A stretch of 64,000 nt of DNA. It comes from a virus. Location: positions 62,001 to 126,000 of the IMG/VR virus record IMGVR_UViG_3300032224_001676; one strand, 5' to 3'. The notes beneath the pieces were generated by a model that did not search any database, was not told the DNA's origin, and was given only the letters and a program-made list of their open reading frames with translations. The position numbers were made by a program, and so were the translations under genes. Numbering within the stretch: the stretch's first letter is position 1; the number at the start of each line of letters is the position of its first letter. Below are positions 18,491 to 63,659 of this stretch, in pieces.

Positions 18491-20680
18491 TTAAGCTAGA
18501 GATGCAGATCTCCAAGCTCCTCCAATATAAGTGTATATGAAATATGATCCTCCATTTTTAGCGGGTACCATTTCTCCTTCTTTACCTGCCCATGTTGGTG
18601 CGGCGCTTTGAGTTGCTACTACAATAGAAGAACTTAATGTTACTTTAAAAGCATCTTTTCCACTACCTAATGCGGTTCCAAATCCTACAATAAATGGGCT
18701 AGTAGTATCTCCAGGGGCGTTAAATGTACCTACTACAGTTTGATATGATCCAGACGCTATTGTACCTCTGCCTCCAGCATGAGAATAAATACCTAACGCT
18801 ATTGTATTAGAACCTTCAGCGTGTGAGTAATTACCTATAGCTGTAGTTCCTGATCCTTCAGTGTGTGATGAGATTCCTATAGCTGTTGTTTGAGTTCCTT
18901 CTGCGTGCGAGTATGAGTTTGACGCTATTGTTTGGTATCCTTCTGTGTGTGATCCAAATCCAATTGCTTGTGTTCTATAATTTTCAGCATGTGAATAATC
19001 ACCAGAAGCTGTTACTTCAACACCTTCAGCGTGTGATGCTATTCCAATTGATAAAGTTCCTGAACCCTCAGCGTGTGAGTAAATACCTTTTGCTGTTGTA
19101 GATGTTCCTTCAGTATGGGAGTGTGAGCCTGATGCTATTGTTTGGTATCCTTCAGCGTGTGAGTACGCTCCAATTGTTGTTGTCTGTCGACCTTCAGCAT
19201 GTGACCATGATCCAGATGAGAGTGTGAAATAACCTTCAGCGTGTGATTTTTCACCTATAGATGTTGTTCCATTTCCTTCAGCATGAGAGTGCATACCTAC
19301 AGCAACAGTATAATAACCTTCAGCATGTGATGCTATTCCAATTGCTTGTCCATAGTTTCCTTCAGCGTGTGAATAGTCACCTTTAGAAGTAGAGTTTTGA
19401 CCTTCAGCATGTGAAGAATATCCTATAGCTTGTGTTCCTGTACCTTCGGTGTGTGAGAAAGAACCTGATGATTTAGTTTGGTTGCCCTCAGCATGTGAGT
19501 AATTTCCTATAGCGACTGTGATGTATCCTTCAGTGTGTGACCAATCCCCAAATGCTGTAGTTATGTATCCTTCAGTATGAGATGCTAAACCTAATGATAT
19601 ATTACCTTGTCCTTCAGTATGTGAATATGAACCTGAAGATATATTTTGTGAACCAGTAATATCATTATAAGATGATTGTAATGCTGGGGAAAGAGTGAAT
19701 GTACTTCTATTGTTTCCAGCACTATATGAAATATTTGTTATTATAGGAAGGGTAGTATAATAATGAGTATTTACAACAAATGCATATGATGGATTTTCTA
19801 AGTAAAGATATTCCATAGTGTATGGAACTGTATTACCTGAGTAGTCACCGGTTACTACTAATGTTGTTGTTGATAATGAAACTACAGGTCCTGCGTATTC
19901 CTCATATTCAATATTAGTAACTGAGGATGGGGTGATAGTGCCTGTTCCTATAATAAATGAAACACCTTCAACATGAGAATTAAATCCTTTTGATGTGGTA
20001 AAATAACCTTCAGCATGTGAACTAACGCCTATTGCTGTTGAATATTGACCTTCAGCATGAGATCCATTTGACGCTGCTTTTGTTTGTGAACCTTCAGCAT
20101 GTGAGAATTGACCAACTGCTACAGTGTTATTTCCTTCAGCGTGTGAGTATTGACCTCCAGCAGTGCTAATATTACCTTCAGCATGTGAATATTGTCCTTG
20201 AGATACATTTGAATATCCTTCAGCGTGTGAATATGAACCAGATGTATTATTATTTAATCCTTGAGATAAACTTCCTGTAATTTGAGCGTTACCATTATGG
20301 GTTCCATCCCATTCTCCTGTCACTCCTGTTAATCCACTACCGTTTCCTATAAATGAACCTGTAAAAGACCCAGTGGCAATTCCACCAAATGATCCAGTTA
20401 TGTTTCCTGCTCCTGTAAATGAACCTGTAAATGAACCTGTAAATGTTCCTACAGACCCAGTCATATTTAATCCTATTACTGAGGTTACTTGTGTAAAATC
20501 TACTAATGAACCCGATAGAACTAATGAACCTGATATTGAGTTCTCAGGGCCTAAAAGAGTATTTGCTAAAAAGATTAAATTGTTATCCATTTCACTAATG
20601 GATATTTTTGCTCCTTTTAAATATACATCATTAGGTAAATTTCCTGATATTGAGCCTTGTCTTAATGTTAATATAGCCAT
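18491..20680 (-). CDS. Repeat-rich tail fibre with about 28 SHAEG (YadA-head-like) repeats
   Basis: The 729-aa protein has a N-terminal fibre segment rich in FTGSFTG repeats (about 65-125). A tandem array of 14-residue units, core SHAEG followed by xxTxAxGxx, fills about 145-680. I count about 28 units, interrupted after the seventh by a roughly 90-residue non-repeat insert. The C-terminal about 50 residues (VGFGTALGSGKDAFKV...) differ and end in an aromatic YIGGAWRSASLA. The repeats resemble the left-handed beta-roll of trimeric autotransporter (YadA/Hia) heads, which occur in phage fibres. A host-binding fibre is the likely role. A shorter paralogue is at 29642-31315. Confidence 0.8.
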   Translation of the reverse strand: MAILTLRQGSISGNLPNDVYLKGAKISISEMDNNLIFLANTLLGPENSISGSLVLSGSLVDFTQVTSVIGLNMTGSVGTFTGSFTGSFTGAGNITGSFGGIATGSFTGSFIGNGSGLTGVTGEWDGTHNGNAQITGSLSQGLNNNTSGSYSHAEGYSNVSQGQYSHAEGNISTAGGQYSHAEGNNTVAVGQFSHAEGSQTKAASNGSHAEGQYSTAIGVSSHAEGYFTTSKGFNSHVEGVSFIIGTGTITPSSVTNIEYEEYAGPVVSLSTTTLVVTGDYSGNTVPYTMEYLYLENPSYAFVVNTHYYTTLPIITNISYSAGNNRSTFTLSPALQSSYNDITGSQNISSGSYSHTEGQGNISLGLASHTEGYITTAFGDWSHTEGYITVAIGNYSHAEGNQTKSSGSFSHTEGTGTQAIGYSSHAEGQNSTSKGDYSHAEGNYGQAIGIASHAEGYYTVAVGMHSHAEGNGTTSIGEKSHAEGYFTLSSGSWSHAEGRQTTTIGAYSHAEGYQTIASGSHSHTEGTSTTAKGIYSHAEGSGTLSIGIASHAEGVEVTASGDYSHAENYRTQAIGFGSHTEGYQTIASNSYSHAEGTQTTAIGISSHTEGSGTTAIGNYSHAEGSNTIALGIYSHAGGRGTIASGSYQTVVGTFNAPGDTTSPFIVGFGTALGSGKDAFKVTLSSSIVVATQSAAPTWAGKEGEMVPAKNGGSYFIYTYIGGAWRSASLA
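18770..20236 (-). repeat. DNA tandem array encoding SHAEG units (42-bp period)
   Basis: Near-identical 14-base segments such as ccttcagcgtgtga recur about every 42 bases, with the array broken by the insert near 19650-19960. Conservation at DNA level beyond the codons needed could allow slippage or recombination that changes fibre length. Confidence 0.8.
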
Positions 20681-29641: not shown

Positions 29642-31315
29642 TTAAAAACCTGAAAATAGTGTGTTTACTTTTGCTAATGCTACAACTTGGCCTTGGATAT
29701 TAGATACACTACTACCTCCACCTCCACCATTCATAGCATAAGATGCTGTTAAAGCGTAAGATGCAGAACCTTGTAGTGAACCAGTAATACTACCATTTAC
29801 TCTTAATGAACCTGTAATTTGAAATTGAGATCCTGATGCAAAAACTAGGTTTGATCTAGCTGAAGTGCTAGTACCATTTCCTATTATAAAAGCGTTTTGA
29901 GCTGATGAGGATTGGTTGAGTAAACCTTGAACATGTTGGCCATCACCGTTTGCTATTGTATAGTACCCTTCAGCGTGTGAATATTGTCCGTTTGCTGTTG
30001 TATATAATCCTTCAGCATGTGAGTATGGACCATTTGTTATTGTGAGATATCCTTCAGCATGTGAATTTTGTGCATTTGCTGTTGTATAATATCCTTCAGC
30101 ATGAGAACCTATTCCTGATACTGCTGTTGTTGTTGTGAGCATTCCTTCAGCGTGTGAAGCATCACCGTATGCTGTTCCTCCAGGAACAATTACTTCACCA
30201 TCACTATCATAAGTATATCCTCCTTCTGCGTGGGAGCCTAATCCTTGAGCTAATGTGGAAACTCCTTCAGCATGTGAGTAATATCCATTTGCCACAGTAA
30301 CATAACCTTCAGCATGTGAAGCAAAACCACCTACTATTGTGAAATTTCCTTCAGCATGTGAATACTGCCCATTTGCTGTTGTATATACTCCTTCAGTATG
30401 AGAAGTAAAACCATTTGCTATTGTATAGTATCCTTCAGCATGTGAGTAGTATCCATTTGTTGTTGTAGTACTACCAACTCCCTCAGCATGTGAATAATCT
30501 CCTCTTGCTATTGTACTGTTTCCTTCAGTGTGTGAATATTGTCCGTTTGCTATTGTGAAATATCCTTCAGCATGTGAATATGATCCTGATGCTTTATTTA
30601 ATTGCCCTTCAGCATGTGAATAAATTCCTGATGCTGTATTTTGGAATCCTTGAACATGAGAAAATAAACCTGATGCAAGTGATGCTGAGGCTTGATTAAA
30701 TATTCCTTGAATTGAAGTAGAACCAGATACATTTAATGAACCAGTTATAATATTTGTTCCAATTATAGTTTTACTTCCAGAAATAAATACGGAACCTGTA
30801 ATTGTTTTAGTTCCTATTAAGGTATTTGAACCTGTTATTATAAGCGACCCTGATATAATTTCATTTCCTATAAATGTGTTTGAACCTGTTGTGGCAAAAG
30901 ATCCTGTTTGAGTATTAGTTACAAATGAACTTGTAGCACTATTTAAAACATAGTTTGGAGCTAAAGACGCAGTAGCAGCATAAGAAGCACTTAATACTGT
31001 TCCTACAATAGCAGAAGCAGTTACATATGACGCGGTTTGAGCATAAGATGCTGTTCCTTGTAATGAACCTGTAAACCCAAGAGTAGAAGTTGTAGAACCA
31101 GTTATTATTAATGATCCTGTTATAATTGCAGAACCGGTATATGGAAATGCTGCCCCACTTCCTCCTCCAGAACCTGTAAATTCTTTTACAATGTTACCTG
31201 ATCCACTACCATAAAATAGTTTTCCATCTTTAGTATTGATGGCTAATTCACCCTGCTGTAATGAAGAGGGAATCACTCCTGATCCGGTACTATTTTTTAT
31301 TATTATTGTAGCCAT
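29642..31315 (-). CDS. Second SHAEG-repeat tail fibre
   Basis: The 557-aa protein has a N-terminal fibre segment with a phage-fibre-like start (GVIPSSLQQGELAINTKDGK at about 14-33, resembling the N-terminal domain of T4-like hinge or tail fibres). Next come SLIITGS repeats (about 60-200), then about 17 SHAEG repeats (about 220-460) and a TASYALTASYAMN segment with a Gly-rich end. It is a shorter paralogue of the 18491-20680 fibre, with a different N-terminal anchor. The two may form different fibres on the same virion. Confidence 0.78.
   Translation of the reverse strand: MATIIIKNSTGSGVIPSSLQQGELAINTKDGKLFYGSGSGNIVKEFTGSGGGSGAAFPYTGSAIITGSLIITGSTTSTLGFTGSLQGTASYAQTASYVTASAIVGTVLSASYAATASLAPNYVLNSATSSFVTNTQTGSFATTGSNTFIGNEIISGSLIITGSNTLIGTKTITGSVFISGSKTIIGTNIITGSLNVSGSTSIQGIFNQASASLASGLFSHVQGFQNTASGIYSHAEGQLNKASGSYSHAEGYFTIANGQYSHTEGNSTIARGDYSHAEGVGSTTTTNGYYSHAEGYYTIANGFTSHTEGVYTTANGQYSHAEGNFTIVGGFASHAEGYVTVANGYYSHAEGVSTLAQGLGSHAEGGYTYDSDGEVIVPGGTAYGDASHAEGMLTTTTAVSGIGSHAEGYYTTANAQNSHAEGYLTITNGPYSHAEGLYTTANGQYSHAEGYYTIANGDGQHVQGLLNQSSSAQNAFIIGNGTSTSARSNLVFASGSQFQITGSLRVNGSITGSLQGSASYALTASYAMNGGGGGSSVSNIQGQVVALAKVNTLFSGF
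29935..30660 (-). repeat. DNA tandem array encoding SHAEG units, second copy
   Basis: About 17 units with a 42-base period and recurrent ccttcagcatgtga segments. Similarity to the first array makes recombination between the two fibre genes possible. Confidence 0.75.
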
Positions 31316-46978: not shown

Positions 46979-47000
46979 ATAAAAAATGGCCCGAAGGCCA
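46979..47000 (-). terminator. GGCC-UUCG-GGCC terminator, copy 1
   Basis: Coding-strand TGGCC, loop TTCG, GGCCA, then TTTTTT. It follows the 135-aa gene. The same hairpin occurs at 52052 and 54425. Confidence 0.9.
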
Positions 47001-47026: not shown

Positions 47027-47434
47027 TTATGATCCTAACCAATCTGAAACAGCATCTACTACTTCATCAAAAGTTAAATGTTCTCCAAAATCAAGACTAG
47101 GATCGTTTGAGTCAATTACCCATGAATTAAAATTCTCATCATCTGTATCCTGGTATACATCATCTGCTCCAATTGCTATTTCTTGTTTTCCTTTTTTGTA
47201 GACCAACATATCCATATCTCCATCTTCTGCTGATACTCTTGGTAGCCAAGAGATTGCGCGGTATGGTTTTATTTGGCCGTGAACTCCGGTGCCTTGAAAT
47301 ATATAATCCATTAAATCATTGATGGCTTCATATGCTGGTGGAGTGTAGTCATCGTTTTCTTTTAGTTTGTTTTTCATTTGGCTTTCAGTAATCAAACCAG
47401 CCAATTTTTGCATTTTTAAGAATTCTTTATTCAT
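47027..47434 (-). CDS. Probable capsid-packaged protein with MQKLAG targeting peptide
   Basis: The 135-aa protein begins MNKEFLKMQKLAGLITESQ. The MQKLAG peptide and following I-T-E match a motif in three other proteins and look like a capsid-targeting sequence cut by the gp21 protease after E17. The rest is acidic (DDVYQDTDDENF; HLTFDEVVDAVSDWLG) and of unknown fold. It ends with the GGCC-UUCG terminator. No clear late-type element, but an imperfect AATATTTATTG occurs 25 nt upstream of the ATG. Confidence 0.55.
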   Translation of the reverse strand: MNKEFLKMQKLAGLITESQMKNKLKENDDYTPPAYEAINDLMDYIFQGTGVHGQIKPYRAISWLPRVSAEDGDMDMLVYKKGKQEIAIGADDVYQDTDDENFNSWVIDSNDPSLDFGEHLTFDEVVDAVSDWLGS

Positions 47435-52051: not shown

Positions 52052-52071
52052 AAAAAATGGCCCGAAGGCCA
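52052..52071 (-). terminator. GGCC-UUCG-GGCC terminator, copy 2
   Basis: Coding-strand TGGCC-TTCG-GGCCA followed by TTTTTTA, just after the heptosyltransferase-like gene. Near identical to the copies at 46979 and 54425. Confidence 0.9.
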
Positions 52072-52075
52072 AATT

Positions 52076-53122
52076 TTATTTTTGAATTTTTTCTTTTATA
52101 ACTTTTAATACATCTTCTTTTGAGACAGGATGTAATACTTCTTCGTATTTAATACTTTCTCTAGGATGATTTTTATTATATATTCTAGTAATATTTTCTG
52201 TTGGTTCATGATATGGAGGAGTGAAATCACTAATTAAAAATACATGAGAGCCACATCCCCACGCTAACCATGATAAGCCTGATGAGTTACCGACAAAAAA
52301 TTCAGATTCGGCTAAATCTTTAATGCGATCTTCTAGTGGATAATCACCTGATTTGTTAGTAACATTTTTTAAATATGAGTATTCTTTACTAATTACTACA
52401 ACTTCGTATCCATATTCATTGAATAAATCAACGATAGCTTGCCATCCTCCTATAATATTCCATTCTTTAGTTTTTAAACTAGCATACTCACTAATACAAA
52501 CTTTTTTCTTGCGTGGAATATTAGGATAGTTAATTTTTGGTTTAGATTCTTTATATTCTAATCCTAAAATATCAGAAGCAATTTTTTGTAATGGGTTATT
52601 TAAATATAAACTAGGTTGATACACTTTATTAGGACTGTTATTAGTACCTATATAATATTGAGCAGCAACATTAGTGATTTTAGTGTTAGGAGCTACAAAC
52701 ATTATGTTTGGGTATATTTGTTCAAATAATTCGTTAAAAAACGTAGAACATATTACATGACATTTATGTTTAATTCTAAATTGGTCTACATAATCAATCC
52801 ATGCTAAATTATCACCTAATGCTCTAGCATCCATTTTAATGAACACTACTTTATTTTCTAAATCTAAAGTATAAGTTCCTAATATGTTGCTTTCTAAATC
52901 TTTAAAAATCAATTTCCATTTAGTGTAATACTGTCTAAACCCAGGAACTGGTTTATTGTCTAGTTTAACTAACCTAAAGTCTACTAGTTTATTAGTTTCA
53001 TCATCTATAAATTCTACTATTATAGATGAATTTATTTCACTTTCAACTTCAGGGGAAGCTGTAATGATTGGTGTTCCTACCTCTAATGGTAAGTTAGTTG
53101 AAAAATCGATTTTTATATTCAT
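52076..53122 (-). CDS. O-heptosyltransferase-like protein (autotransporter Aah/TibC type)
   Basis: The 348-aa protein contains KVVFIKMDARALGDNLAWID, then QFRIKHKCHVICSTFFNELF, YPNIMFVAP and LQKIASDILGLEYKES. These blocks follow the autotransporter strand-loop-strand O-heptosyltransferase family (Aah/TibC), which transfers heptose to Ser/Thr of surface adhesins. The GT-B-like C-terminal half includes YEVVVISKEYSYLK and FFVGNSSGLSWLAWGC. Iron-binding Cys positions of TibC were not verified. The ATG is overlapped by 4 bases with the FAD gene stop upstream, so they form a coupled pair. Sugar donor and target are unknown. Confidence 0.68.
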   Translation of the reverse strand: MNIKIDFSTNLPLEVGTPIITASPEVESEINSSIIVEFIDDETNKLVDFRLVKLDNKPVPGFRQYYTKWKLIFKDLESNILGTYTLDLENKVVFIKMDARALGDNLAWIDYVDQFRIKHKCHVICSTFFNELFEQIYPNIMFVAPNTKITNVAAQYYIGTNNSPNKVYQPSLYLNNPLQKIASDILGLEYKESKPKINYPNIPRKKKVCISEYASLKTKEWNIIGGWQAIVDLFNEYGYEVVVISKEYSYLKNVTNKSGDYPLEDRIKDLAESEFFVGNSSGLSWLAWGCGSHVFLISDFTPPYHEPTENITRIYNKNHPRESIKYEEVLHPVSKEDVLKVIKEKIQK

Positions 53123-54408
53123 AATAAATTTTCTGCTACGTAAATTCCATGTGCGCCACTAACTGTTATACCTCTAGCACTCAAAGCATCTCCTACAAAA
53201 TGTACATTAGGATAATTAGTTAAAGCTAAATTAGTATAATCAACTAGTGGTTCAGGACTTAAATATTTTACTTCAGGTATATACATTCCCCAATCATTTC
53301 CAAATTCAAATACTTTATTCATTTGATCAATAAAGTTAATAATGTAATCAGCGTATTCACCCATTACTTCTTTAAATTGATTTAAATTAAAAATTTGAAC
53401 TGTGTTAACATTTTCGCCTTCAGATGTTTGTGATGGTGTACGAGATGGACTATAATATAATCCAATATTCCTAAATTGTAGTTTACTTACTATTTCACGT
53501 GACCATTCAAATGGATTTTCAATACCTTTAATTTCCATTAAAATACCAAAATTAGTCATATCATTTCTAAATTCTTCACCTTTTTTAGCGTGACCATTAT
53601 AAGTAATATCACCATATGTTTCCTCTACTGCTACATATGCTGCGTTATTGTTAGTACAGAACGAACGTAATGATACATTGTCAAACTTTTGATATAGTTT
53701 AAAATCATAACTAACATCAATTAACTTTTGGAAATATTTTTGTGGTGCCTCAAAACGTACTCCAATTTGTACTGATTTTGGTTCAGTTGGTAGATTATAT
53801 TGGTTAGATACTTTTTGGGCAAAGTCAATACCTGATTTGCCTACAGCAAATATAAGAGTATCATACATTATTGCTTCGTTTTCTCCATACCCATCAATAT
53901 AATTAACCCAATTGTTAGCTAAATTTAAATTAGTAACTTCTATCCCCCACATAAAATTAACACCATTGTCAATTAAATATTGATACCATGTTTTAGCAAT
54001 TTCATGTAGATAATTTGAACCAATATGCCATACAGGGAACAAACGTAATCCAAAATACGGTTTAATAAAATCAGGTTCTGCTTGTGGGTCAGAGCAAAAT
54101 ATTTCCTCTGGTTTAGGATGGAAACGTCTAAAGTTGTTAATGACTTGATCCATTAACCCCATTGCTTTTTCTTCACCACAATACTTTGATAATACACCTC
54201 CGATAGCAGTATGGTATGTTAATTTACCATCTGACCATCCACCTGCTCCTAACATTCCTGTCATTACCTCTTCAGGTAAACGATTATGTGGGTCATTTCC
54301 TTTGTCTATGATTGTAATTAATTCACCTGGGTAACCATTATCGATTAATTTTGTAGCTGCGTTTATGCCTGCTACACCAGCGCCTACTATAACTATTTTT
54401 TTATTCAT
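53119..54408 (-). CDS. FAD-dependent oxidoreductase, COG2509-like
   Basis: The 429-aa protein starts IVIVGAGVAGINAATKL (GxGxxG dinucleotide-binding motif at 9-14). It has GAGGWSDGKLTYHTAIGGVL at about 55-74, which fits the GG.G.fSDGKL block of the uncharacterised COG2509 FAD dehydrogenases. The C-terminal part closes with HFVGDALSARGITVSGAHGI, an FAD-contact segment. The substrate is unknown. It lies in an operon with the heptosyltransferase-like gene and between two identical terminators. Such genes are rare in phages as far as I know. Confidence 0.78.
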   Translation of the reverse strand: MNKKIVIVGAGVAGINAATKLIDNGYPGELITIIDKGNDPHNRLPEEVMTGMLGAGGWSDGKLTYHTAIGGVLSKYCGEEKAMGLMDQVINNFRRFHPKPEEIFCSDPQAEPDFIKPYFGLRLFPVWHIGSNYLHEIAKTWYQYLIDNGVNFMWGIEVTNLNLANNWVNYIDGYGENEAIMYDTLIFAVGKSGIDFAQKVSNQYNLPTEPKSVQIGVRFEAPQKYFQKLIDVSYDFKLYQKFDNVSLRSFCTNNNAAYVAVEETYGDITYNGHAKKGEEFRNDMTNFGILMEIKGIENPFEWSREIVSKLQFRNIGLYYSPSRTPSQTSEGENVNTVQIFNLNQFKEVMGEYADYIINFIDQMNKVFEFGNDWGMYIPEVKYLSPEPLVDYTNLALTNYPNVHFVGDALSARGITVSGAHGIYVAENLL

Positions 54409-54424
54409 ATGCTATAAAAATAAT

Positions 54425-54444
54425 AAAGAATGGCCCGAAGGCCA
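54425..54444 (-). terminator. GGCC-UUCG-GGCC terminator, copy 3
   Basis: Coding-strand TTTGGCC-TTCG-GGCCATTCTTTATT after the 926-aa gene. The stem is unchanged; the T tract is interrupted by one C. Confidence 0.85.
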
Positions 54445-54470: not shown

Positions 54471-57251
54471 TTACTTAATTATGCCTGCTAATTTTTGCAT
54501 TCTTGTAAATGACTCTTTTATAGGTTGTGTTGGTTTATTTTGAGTTGCTTTTTCATTTCTATCAGCAGCTGTCTCAGTGTTAGTAAGTTCATTAGCAGCC
54601 GCAACAATTGCTCCTCTAATTTGTGATTTATTCTTTAAGAACTCTGGGCTGAGGAATGGTATTATTTCGCGTAAAATAACTTGTATAGCTTCTTCAGCAC
54701 TGTCGATATTTTTAAAACGAGTTACTAAAGTAGGATTTTTAAGAATGTTTTGGATAGCAGTAGAAGCATCTTTTTCTTCTTCTGTAATCCTGTTTCTCAT
54801 TCCGTACATTAAACTTCGTAGTTTTGTCTTGTCTTGAATTAATTTTGGGTTAAATATACCTATAAGACCAGTAACAAGATCTTTAAGTTCATCTTTTTTG
54901 TTAATTAATTTAAGGTATCGTTGTATATCTTTTCTTTTCCCAATTTCTGCTCCCACTTTATCCGCGTCTGGTTGAGCTTTAGTACTTTTAGAATTTCTAT
55001 CAAAATCACCAGTTCGTATTTGTTGTGCTGTGTCACCAGGTTTCATATAAACATAATTTCCTCCAGCTTGGGGTGCAAACCCCATACCTTGGAGTTCTTT
55101 TTGTTCTTGTTTAGAAAGTTTTGAAGGATCTACAATACTAACATCTGTATTTCCGTCTGCAGCATACATGCTTCCTAATAATGCTATAATAGCTACTCTG
55201 TTAGCTTTAATTTCTTCAGGTGTTATTCCTAATTCACTGAATAAATCATCAATAGCAGCCTCTTGTAAGTAAATTTGGGCTTCAGTTACTTGTGTAATTG
55301 GAGCTTGTGTATTAGCTCCAGGTTTAGTAGCAACTGCTTTAGCTCTTGGAGCTAACTCAATACCAGTAAGAGCAGATACTTTTTTCAGAAATGAATCTGG
55401 TGATTTTCTAAGATTTGGGATAAGTTTAGCTAATTTTTTAGCTGTTTCTGAAGCGTTACTGTCTTGAATTTTTTTAAAGTCGTTGTCTGAAAGACTAGTT
55501 ATAGTGTTTTTACCTAATTGTGTAAAAATATTAAGTTTAGGACTCATGCGAGATAAAACCATCGCTATTTGTCCATTTCTATTTAATTTAGATAAATTAG
55601 TAACGTCTTGTTTAGCTTGAGCAGGTCTAATAGGAGCAGCCTTTTTATCAGATACATCTAATGGTGGAAGTACTACACCAGTTTTATCAGATTTATTTGA
55701 TGATGTTTTTGGTGTTTCTTCATCAGATGGTTTTTCTTTTTCTGATGGTTTTTCTTTTTTACCACCGTATGTGTCAAAAAGAGGATCATATCCTAATAAA
55801 GTTGTAGGATTAGGAGGTGTTACTGGGGCGTCTTTTTCTCCAACTTCACCTACTCTAATAGCAGATTGGGTGGCTGTGTCATCGGTTCTATCAATTTGGG
55901 TTAATTTATCAATGTCGTTTCCCCCACCAATTTTTAACTCATATGTCCCTCCATCTTCTAGCTCAATTGTGTTTCCACTTCTAGTATATTTTATACCATC
56001 TTCTTTTAATTGAGATTCAATATCATCAATAGCTGCCTCAGCAGTGTTATTAGCTCTATTAACATTTAAGTCTCCTCCTTGTGCATCTACATTAGAGTTA
56101 TTAGCAGAGTGACTTGATGCTCCTAAAATTGTTTCAGAATAGTTTTGACCATTCTTTAAGAATTTAATAATATCAGCATTTTCCTGGCTAATTTTCTTTA
56201 AATCGTCTTGGTCTAATTGGCTAGAACCATTTTTAAATTTAATAAAGTTAACAGTTTGATTATCATCACTATCAATATCTAATCCTTGTTTTTTAGCATC
56301 TGCTAAATCTGGGTTATCTGTCTCTAAATCTCCTAAATCGTCTGATGAGTCGTCAGCATCGTCGCCTCCATCATCACCTCCATTGTCATCGGGAGATTGT
56401 CCATTATCATCTAAAGCAGCACCAGATTGCCCACCAGCATCTGCTGAAGATTCCCCATTTAAAAAGCTGTTAATTTGATCATTAGAGAAACCTGCTTTAG
56501 CAAGTTGTCTAATAGTTTCTTGAGAAGCAGCATCGCTTCCATCCATATCAATATCTGTTACTGCATCTACGGCATTTCCTATATCGTCAGCTAACCCAAC
56601 ATAAGCTGTACCTAAAAACATTGCGCCTGAAAGAAGTTTACCTATAAGCGTATCAGTAAAAAATTTATTGAGAGAAGATATTACTCCTTTATTTTCAGTT
56701 TTACCTGCTTTATTAAGTTTACTTCCAACTGATTTCCATGTGTCTTTAGTAATAAATATTTCTTTTGTTTGGTCGCCTTCTTCGTCTGTAGGTTGATCAA
56801 AATAATAACCTTCTACACCATTAACTGTAACCCATTTTGGTTCCTCAGCCTTTGCTTCATTTAATGATTTGTTTTTTATAATACTAATTGCAGCTGCTAC
56901 TTCTTCTTTATTTTTAAGATCTATTCCTGCGTTACGTAATGCACTTAATGCTGCTAATGCTTCAGCTGGTTTTTTAGTAGATGTTAATGATTTGAGAAAC
57001 TTATCTAATTTTGGGAGTTGTTTTTTAGAAAAATTATCCTTTACAACTGAGAAGAATTTTTTAAGTTTGTTTTCCGTTAACTGGCTTTCTAATAGTGTAG
57101 ATCTGCGAGTTAATAAATGTTCTTTAATGAGAAAATTAAGTAGAACATTATGGTTTTTAGTGTATGTTATTTTATTATGATTTTTATTAGTAGGTTGAGC
57201 ACCCGCTAATTTTTGCATACGAGCGAACTGCTCGTTAAGAGGTTGTATCAT
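54471..57251 (-). CDS. Large putative internal/ejected virion protein with OmpA-like domain
   Basis: The 926-aa protein has the MQKLAG targeting peptide at both ends: LNEQFARMQKLAGAQP near the N terminus and IKESFTRMQKLAGIIK at the C terminus. A hydrophobic stretch (GKLLSGAMFLGTAYVGLADD) sits around 204-225. An acidic Asp/Gly-rich linker follows (about 265-320). An OmpA-like segment comes at about 337-450 (FIKFKNGSSQLDQDDLKKIS, ... ILGASSHSANNSN...). OmpA-like domains bind peptidoglycan. The layout suggests a protein packaged in the head and ejected to aid DNA transit or wall contact. No lytic active site was recognised. It overlaps the cupin-like gene by 4 bases. Confidence 0.55.
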   Translation of the reverse strand: MIQPLNEQFARMQKLAGAQPTNKNHNKITYTKNHNVLLNFLIKEHLLTRRSTLLESQLTENKLKKFFSVVKDNFSKKQLPKLDKFLKSLTSTKKPAEALAALSALRNAGIDLKNKEEVAAAISIIKNKSLNEAKAEEPKWVTVNGVEGYYFDQPTDEEGDQTKEIFITKDTWKSVGSKLNKAGKTENKGVISSLNKFFTDTLIGKLLSGAMFLGTAYVGLADDIGNAVDAVTDIDMDGSDAASQETIRQLAKAGFSNDQINSFLNGESSADAGGQSGAALDDNGQSPDDNGGDDGGDDADDSSDDLGDLETDNPDLADAKKQGLDIDSDDNQTVNFIKFKNGSSQLDQDDLKKISQENADIIKFLKNGQNYSETILGASSHSANNSNVDAQGGDLNVNRANNTAEAAIDDIESQLKEDGIKYTRSGNTIELEDGGTYELKIGGGNDIDKLTQIDRTDDTATQSAIRVGEVGEKDAPVTPPNPTTLLGYDPLFDTYGGKKEKPSEKEKPSDEETPKTSSNKSDKTGVVLPPLDVSDKKAAPIRPAQAKQDVTNLSKLNRNGQIAMVLSRMSPKLNIFTQLGKNTITSLSDNDFKKIQDSNASETAKKLAKLIPNLRKSPDSFLKKVSALTGIELAPRAKAVATKPGANTQAPITQVTEAQIYLQEAAIDDLFSELGITPEEIKANRVAIIALLGSMYAADGNTDVSIVDPSKLSKQEQKELQGMGFAPQAGGNYVYMKPGDTAQQIRTGDFDRNSKSTKAQPDADKVGAEIGKRKDIQRYLKLINKKDELKDLVTGLIGIFNPKLIQDKTKLRSLMYGMRNRITEEEKDASTAIQNILKNPTLVTRFKNIDSAEEAIQVILREIIPFLSPEFLKNKSQIRGAIVAAANELTNTETAADRNEKATQNKPTQPIKESFTRMQKLAGIIK

Positions 57252-62746: not shown

Positions 62747-63484
62747 TTATACTTCTTCAGTAGAGATTTGCTGTCTTGTGAAATAAGTAAGAGCGTTACC
62801 AATTTGTCTTACAAGTTTTTTATCTCCTAATTGTTTAGCTGAGTTTAACGCAGCTGTTAAATCTTTTTGTACTTCATCAGTTGATCCGCCTCCACTTGTA
62901 GAATCATCAGTTGTATCATCAGCTGTATCTTTAGTATCAGTGTCTTCAGCATCTAAAGTTATTTCTTCTTCTTCGTCCTCATCTTTTTTAGCTTCTTCTA
63001 AATCTATTCCGTCTTCAGTTAAAGCAGCCATAATTTCTTTACGAATAGCTTCTTTTAACTCAGTTTTAGACATTTTCTTATTTTTAGGTTTTTTAGACTC
63101 AGCGAAAGTATCTTCATCAGTATCAAATGGAAAATCTTCCATTTCACCATTATAGTTGTAAATATCGTCTGTATATGAATTAATATTACTACTATCAAAA
63201 CCAGTTATATATGAAAGTAAAGATTGCTTTATACTTTTTACCATATCTTCTGGTAGTTCGCCCAATGATAAGCCTAAGAATTGGGTAGCGTCTCCATCGT
63301 CTGTTAATGGTTCAATGAGCATTTCTTTAGTACCACGGTCTAATGAGTCCCATGTTTCTTCAAATTTAGCTTCATCACTACTAAAATTCATTTCATTTAT
63401 TTTACTAACATATTGCGACTCAGTAATTACTCCTGCAAGTTTTTGCATTTTAATAAACTGTTCATTGATTAATGTTTTGGCCAT
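62747..63484 (-). CDS. Probable capsid-packaged protein with MQKLAG targeting peptide
   Basis: I place the start at ATG 63482-63484 (245 aa); the longer reading covers the late-type element. It begins AKTLINEQFIKMQKLAGVIT, then ESQ: the targeting peptide plus an I-T-E site, almost identical to the 47027 gene. A second tag-like helix, SKTELKEAIRKEIMAALTED, lies at about 138-157. Acidic Asp/Thr-rich stretch follows (about 160-200), then a helical C terminus (LNSAKQLGDKKLVRQIGNAL). Two targeting-type modules in one protein suggest a head-core component. Confidence 0.58.
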   Translation of the reverse strand: MAKTLINEQFIKMQKLAGVITESQYVSKINEMNFSSDEAKFEETWDSLDRGTKEMLIEPLTDDGDATQFLGLSLGELPEDMVKSIKQSLLSYITGFDSSNINSYTDDIYNYNGEMEDFPFDTDEDTFAESKKPKNKKMSKTELKEAIRKEIMAALTEDGIDLEEAKKDEDEEEEITLDAEDTDTKDTADDTTDDSTSGGGSTDEVQKDLTAALNSAKQLGDKKLVRQIGNALTYFTRQQISTEEV

Positions 63485-63499
63485 TGTGTATTGTTTTAT

Positions 63500-63507
63500 T
63501 ATAAATA
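63500..63507 (-). promoter_or_regulatory. Late-type AATATATTTATAA element before the packaged protein
   Basis: The coding strand reads AATATATTTATAATAAAACAATACACA, then ATG. The core lies about 15 nt upstream of the start at 63484. Confidence 0.5.
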
Positions 63508-63509
63508 TA

Positions 63510-63659
63510 TTATTTTTTAGGAGTGTTATCATGTCCACATTTATGGCATATGAATAAGTCGTCTCCTCCGTCTTTTATTTTCCATGACCACCCACATTTA
63601 TCACAAATGATTTTAGAATTAGCAATCATTTCTTGTATTATATCTGTTAGTTTGATCAT
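63510..63659 (-). CDS. Small zinc-ribbon protein (49 aa)
   Basis: I read this directly: ATG at 63657-63659, stop at 63510-63512. The product is MIKLTDIIQEMIANSK, then CDKCGWSWKIKDGGDDLFIC and HKCGHDNTPKK. Two CxxC pairs form a classical zinc ribbon. The N-terminal helix resembles the tags of nearby proteins. It overlaps the upstream gene by 4 bases (ATGA). Zinc ribbons of this size often contact nucleic acid; the role is unknown. Confidence 0.7.
   Translation of the reverse strand: MIKLTDIIQEMIANSKIICDKCGWSWKIKDGGDDLFICHKCGHDNTPKK

Follow-up and report, generated by a model that had tools for sequence, protein, structure and literature searches.

The window analysed here is a stretch of 64,000 nucleotides, bases 62001-126000 of the 127,786-bp virus record G000 (lake-water phage). 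The terminase, portal, sheath and major head protein of G000 match PHROGs of contractile-tailed phages. In the window, a transferase gene and an oxidoreductase gene (the FAD gene) form a bicistron on the minus strand (Table 1). The junction sequence shows that the two ORFs share 4 bases, and both are intact, as had been described in an earlier, sequence-only reading. Compared with their relatives, both genes are under purifying selection (dN/dS ~0.05-0.2).

Table 1. Features discussed in the text (window positions, except where G000 is given)
Feature	Position	Strand	Description
Compact TibC/Aah-type O-heptosyltransferase (predicted)	52076-53122	(-)	348 aa; N-terminal beta domain and GT-B domain; intact ORF
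COG2509-like FAD-dependent oxidoreductase	53119-54408	(-)	429 aa; intact ORF; upstream gene of the bicistron with the transferase
Terminator hairpin GGCC-UUCG-GGCC	52058-52071	(-)	between the transferase stop and the VWA/metallopeptidase gene
Identical terminator hairpin	54431-54444	(-)	between the 926-aa gene and the FAD start
Third identical terminator hairpin	46987-47000	(-)	ends a different unit; motif not specific to the pair
Putative acceptor fibre, YadA-head repeats	18491-20680	(-)	729 aa; 26% Ser+Thr; 18 SHAEG repeats; PF05658 E 2e-18
Putative acceptor, second fibre	29642-31315	(-)	557 aa; 26% Ser+Thr; 13 SHAEG repeats; PF05658 E 0.005 (below cut-off)
SHAEG-repeat proteins outside the window	G000:43743-45647 and G000:47707-50154		

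Copies of the hairpin TGGCCUUCGGGCCA flank the pair, and in folding they are far more stable than shuffled sequences. By chance, the window should contain 0.07 matches to GGCCNNNNGGCC. The sequence-only reading had taken these terminators as the borders of a self-contained cassette. Both are indeed present and identical, but the third copy closes another unit, and relatives seldom carry the exact motif. Since a third copy ends another unit, the hairpins are ordinary phage terminators and not cassette borders. In the window, the 926-aa protein (54471-57251) and the proteins at 47027-47434 and 62747-63538 carry a short N- and/or C-terminal motif like 'F-x-[RK]MQKLAG', which occurs twice in the 926-aa protein and is possibly a targeting or prohead-type signal.

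Family, fold and active site of the transferase

The transferase matched TIGR04414 (Aah/TibC O-heptosyltransferase) with an E value of 1.1e-52 and 179.2 bits, a score below the curated cut-off of 200 bits. The match to TibC (4rap/4rb4) had an E value of 2e-27 by sequence and 7e-79 by profile comparison. An AlphaFold2 model built on a 35-sequence alignment (pLDDT 95.2, pTM 0.91) predicted an N-terminal beta domain and a GT-B catalytic domain, the full-length fold of the BAHT enzymes TibC and Aah (TIGR04414; 4RAP, 4RB4). The leading Foldseek matches of this model were all TibC chains (E ~1e-25, TM 0.78-0.85 on the query, full length), followed by GT9 and WaaC/WaaF heptosyltransferases. WaaC/WaaF (GT9), the second-best structural match (E ~1e-7), share the GT-B ADP-heptose transferase fold. 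However, they do not possess the TibC-type N-terminal beta domain, act on the lipid A-core and show 10-13% identity.

In TibC, D110, K230, R286 and W305 are important by mutation, and T226 is a donor-binding residue (PMC4358343). These residues correspond to D104, K219, R266, W285 and, as a conservative replacement, S215 in the window enzyme; thus, the catalytic Asp and the Lys, Arg and Trp for ADP-heptose are the same as in TibC/Aah. D104, K219 and W285 are invariant across the 35 sequences, and R266 and S215 are present in at least 90% of them. The site that selects between D,D- and L,D-heptose is Pro300 in TibC and Ser294 in Aah. The window transferase has Ser at this site, as does Aah.

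Two elements of TibC, the iron finger with its four cysteines and the beta-hairpin thumb, are both required for the TibC dodecamer. The iron finger is absent from the window transferase and from the whole compact branch described below. The loss looks clean, with ~26 residues missing relative to sister phage proteins. The thumb is shortened by a deletion at its position, seen in the pairwise alignment and in alignment A2. Since the thumb and the iron finger are needed for TibC activity on TibA (PMC4358343), substrate recognition by the compact enzyme must differ. TibC and Aah also differ from the window enzyme in their setting: no autotransporter gene of the AIDA-I/TibA type was seen beside the transferase, whose neighbours in the window and in the relatives are phage genes. 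Sequence and modelled fold place the gene product in the TibC/Aah (BAHT) superfamily, as a cytoplasmic GT-B glycosyltransferase for which heptose transfer to Ser/Thr is predicted. The Aah/TibC assignment of the sequence-only reading, and the glycosyltransferase fold that it implied, are borne out.

When the phage alignment was used for a scan of viral sequences, at least 524 relatives of the transferase were found, and related patterns gave 18 prokaryotic loci in ~85,000 genomes, two counts that are not strictly comparable because the search patterns and limits differ. Some of the 18 loci are on short MAG contigs and could be viral. The relatives form two groups: compact enzymes of ~340-350 aa without the iron finger, and enzymes that possess it, which are often fusions with GT4 or other domains. 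In the tree, the compact branch is monophyletic and phage-dominated (support 100/100), and the iron finger is present in its sister branch, which holds phage and bacterial proteins. In the open-access literature searched, we found no report of a compact phage branch without the iron finger tied to YadA-type fibres. The same literature gave nothing direct on TibC-like enzymes or nonulosonic-acid synthesis in phages.

The FAD gene and its 3' side

The FAD protein has an FAD/NAD-binding N-terminus and matches phrog_12409 over its full length. The nearest solved fold is 3nlc VP0956, which we take to be a COG2509 protein; the profile match covers residues 128-427 (E 0.0028), and Foldseek with a moderate model (pLDDT 76) gave an E value of 1e-16, with similarity over the whole length. 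The COG2509-like call of the sequence-only reading is borne out by all three results. Close relatives were found at no fewer than 489 viral loci, with high identity, and distant kin occur in Campylobacter phages. In a large group of uncultured phages, the FAD gene belongs to the core and is strongly conserved.

Among the best 80 of these at least 489 loci, 77 do not possess the transferase, and FAD identity is 75-97% with or without it. When 30 FAD records without the transferase were searched whole, no TibC-like gene was found, in a search in which no positive control matched. Conversely, the FAD gene is absent from 20 of the 27 compact-transferase records. The 4-base overlap recurs in L001, the two genes are adjacent in L003, and in L103 and L104 no more than three genes lie from the transferase to FAD. 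Thus, the two genes are mostly apart in other genomes, an outcome that the sequence-only reading had itself named as a refutation. Its paired, self-contained cassette is rejected on this distribution, although its view of family and fold is supported and fibres are likely acceptors. The FAD gene is probably unrelated in function to the transferase.

The conserved gene order is FAD, VWA/metallopeptidase and AAA, and the gap after FAD is empty in most relatives with this synteny. In L014, this gap is ~80 bp long and contains a terminator-like hairpin. In L020, an ORF in the gap (L020:7336-7944) resembles, by our own reading of the frame, a GIY-YIG homing nuclease. The transferase occupies the gap in the window and in L001. 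It comes after FAD in L003-type genomes too, but with different genes downstream. Since the gap is empty or holds a GIY-YIG-like ORF or the transferase depending on the genome, the 3' side of FAD is a site that takes cargo. The transferase may have been inserted there, 3' of the resident FAD gene and ahead of the terminator, and would be co-transcribed with it.

Fibres near the transferase and candidate acceptors

A fibre was defined as a protein of at least 200 aa with at least 20% Ser+Thr. Such a Ser/Thr-rich fibre lies within four ORFs of the transferase at 10 of 22 deduplicated compact loci and at 21 of 29 iron-finger loci, versus 2 of 77 FAD loci. A YadA-type repeat fibre is nearby at 7/22 deduplicated compact loci versus 0/77 FAD loci, and collagen-like proteins are found near the iron-finger enzymes (14/29 loci). 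At the level of records, YadA_head is present in 12/21 of those with a compact transferase (deduplicated) but in 3/30 of those with FAD only (P 0.0005). A stricter in-genome null took large non-fibre genes from the same set of 12 genomes: a fibre within two ORFs was expected 1.6 times and observed 6 times (P 0.0014), and a nearby YadA-type fibre was expected 0.54 times and observed 4 times (P 0.0008). The P values are somewhat optimistic, because the composition rule and the repeat pattern were chosen after the first cases had been seen.

If the FAD-linked trio is set aside, the closest relatives in the tree are L008, L099, L102, L103 and L104. All five lie next to a fibre, which in three cases is of YadA type. 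The transferase of L008, 58% identical to that of the window, has a GT4 gene on one side and a gene for a fibre-like protein of 1269 aa on the other, and this GT4 gene is preceded by a 1005-aa YadA-head repeat protein (PF05658 E 2e-84). In the window, the nearest SHAEG fibre is ~21 kb from the transferase. Since the other five members of the subclade are fibre-adjacent, the window lineage has probably moved away from an ancestral proximity to fibres. For about half of the compact branch, the neighbours are not fibres; LRR-like (468 aa) and RNase H-like (PF04308) proteins recur beside the compact transferase at L106:5599-7568 and similar loci.

Four proteins of G000, two in the window and two outside it, are built with SHAEG repeats, and each contains 13-22 exact copies of the motif. 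The repeat type of the 729-aa protein is that of the fibres beside the transferase's relatives. The SHAEG proteins are putative tail fibres, judged by the type of their repeats, their composition and their location among structural genes. In the 14-residue repeat S-H-A-E-G-x-x-[TS]-x-[AST]-x-G, Ser is invariant, position 8 is mostly Thr/Ser, and more Thr/Ser occur at positions 9 and 10. This periodic display loosely resembles that of the AIDA-I/TibA repeats. Since a YadA fibre protein query gave only 3 loci, a DNA repeat pattern was used to sample SHAEG fibres in other phages. Only 1 of the 50 sampled records contains a TibC-like gene, which is not fibre-adjacent there; therefore, the modification would be optional. 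The linkage statistics and the four YadA-head-like fibres of G000 support the Ser/Thr-rich fibres as likely acceptors, a role that the sequence-only reading had suggested for fibres encoded nearby.

Sugar donor, alternative readings and significance

No match to rfaE domain II or to SIS_2/GmhA-type models was found in G000. Therefore, an ADP-heptose donor would have to come from the host, and on these models phage-made ADP-heptose is rejected for G000. The record of L153, an iron-finger relative, holds an rfaE domain II (ADP-heptose synthase) domain over the cut-off. Microcystis phage Mel-JY01 has an iron-finger relative of the transferase; a 'cytidylyltransferase-like' neighbour there was considered as HldE but not supported, with only weak NMN-adenylyltransferase/PF01467 matches. 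The promoter motif TAnnTTTG, taken as a clue to the host, was not enriched.

Other genes of G000 lie outside the window. A nonulosonic-acid-like sugar operon at G000:20621-33229 (L091:621-13229) encodes a NeuB/PseI-type synthase (PF03102 E 5e-64), a PseB-like dehydratase and a PseH-like acetyltransferase, together with CMP-sugar transferase, aminotransferase, Gfo/Idh, GT4 and GT2-like genes. NeuB is also present in the close relative G001 and in 0/39 other records searched. QueE- and QueC-like genes at G000:52209-54604 (L092:12209-14604) suggest 7-deazaguanine modification of DNA or tRNA. GroEL- and GroES-like genes at G000:36766-38681 (L091:16766-18681) were read by eye from the translation.

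The explanation that we prefer, and to which we give about an even chance, is that the transferase acts in the cytoplasm on the YadA-head-like repeats of the phage's own fibres, probably with host ADP-heptose. Heptose made available by the host as ADP-heptose would be O-linked to Ser/Thr of the SHAEG repeats before virion assembly, and the resulting sugar coat may alter the adsorption range, protect against proteases or decoys, or make the fibres stiffer.

A different target on the phage side has a modest chance of being the correct answer: another virion or non-virion protein could be O-glycosylated, or a different ADP-/NDP-sugar used, so that the fibre linkage would reflect only a shared variable cargo region. 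The half of the compact branch that is not fibre-adjacent and the varied cargo of the FAD-VWA gap, such as the GIY-YIG-like ORF, fit this view. So do the mycobacteriophages Che8 (gp110), Corndog (gp38) and Myrna, in which virion glycosylation is known (Freeman et al. 2023, cited in PMC12363180). As in our proposal, these phages encode transferases that place sugars on their own structural proteins, but the acceptors are the capsid and the tail tube, and the consulted sections of PMC12363180 mention no TibC-type enzyme or fibre acceptor. Against other acceptors, the fibre enrichment holds versus the in-genome null, specifically for YadA-head fibres; against other sugars, the ADP-binding Arg is widely kept. 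There is a similarly modest chance that the enzyme modifies the host envelope (LPS, capsule or surface protein) during infection and blocks the adsorption of competitors by superinfection exclusion. The host-recognition cluster of pelagimyophages offers a parallel, with glycosyltransferases beside tail-fibre genes in aquatic phages and with YadA domains and rfaE reported; there, however, GT8 is the commonest type and the enzymes are interpreted as modifiers of the host O-chain (PMC7029224). A text search of that paper found no heptosyltransferase (PMC7029224). The nonulosonic-acid-like operon of G000, with its GT2/GT4-type genes, could also feed a surface glycan. However, the fold matches TibC, a protein-modifying enzyme, over the full length and well ahead of WaaC/WaaF, the genomic linkage is to fibres, and no finding here favours the host surface over the fibres.

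Two further readings carry little weight. A pathway shared by the two enzymes, in which the FAD protein would oxidise either the donor or the sugar once attached, would agree with the overlap in the window and L001, the co-transcription between terminators and the proximity of the genes in L003, L103 and L104. Nevertheless, this is very improbable and already largely refuted by the distribution given above, in which each gene mostly occurs without the other and FAD identity stays at 75-97% with or without the transferase. A role in phage DNA modification, like that of the T4 glucosyltransferases, is the least credible reading: GT-B folds include T4 AGT, a weak Foldseek match to 1y8z (E 8e-4) was obtained and the phage has QueC/QueE-like base-modification genes, but the TibC-type N-terminal domain is kept and the similarity to TibC is overwhelming. 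In addition, the ThyA-like gene matches thymidylate synthase, and no hydroxymethylase was found among the proteins scanned.

Our preferred reading, fibre glycosylation, can be widened to the family, a step that we take tentatively and regard as falling somewhat short of probable. The compact, iron-free branch of the TibC superfamily would hyperheptosylate phage fibres at dozens of repeated Ser/Thr sites. Phages would then have taken over both an enzyme of autotransporter-adhesin glycosylation and fibres that resemble autotransporter (YadA) heads, which would amount to a widespread viral O-glycosylation system with a second arm, the iron-finger and often GT4-fused enzymes, acting on collagen-like fibres.

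TibC-type enzymes are known as the adhesin heptosyltransferases of bacterial autotransporters in pathogens. Described here is a distinct, phage-dominated branch that dispenses with the iron finger and, partly, with the thumb, both of which were thought essential. The window transferase is a small single-domain enzyme for the predicted O-heptosylation of repeat proteins. If fibre heptosylation is true, environmental phages bear sugar-coated receptor-binding fibres, which would bear on host range, on the prediction of fibre-receptor contacts from sequence and on the origin of autotransporter glycosylation.
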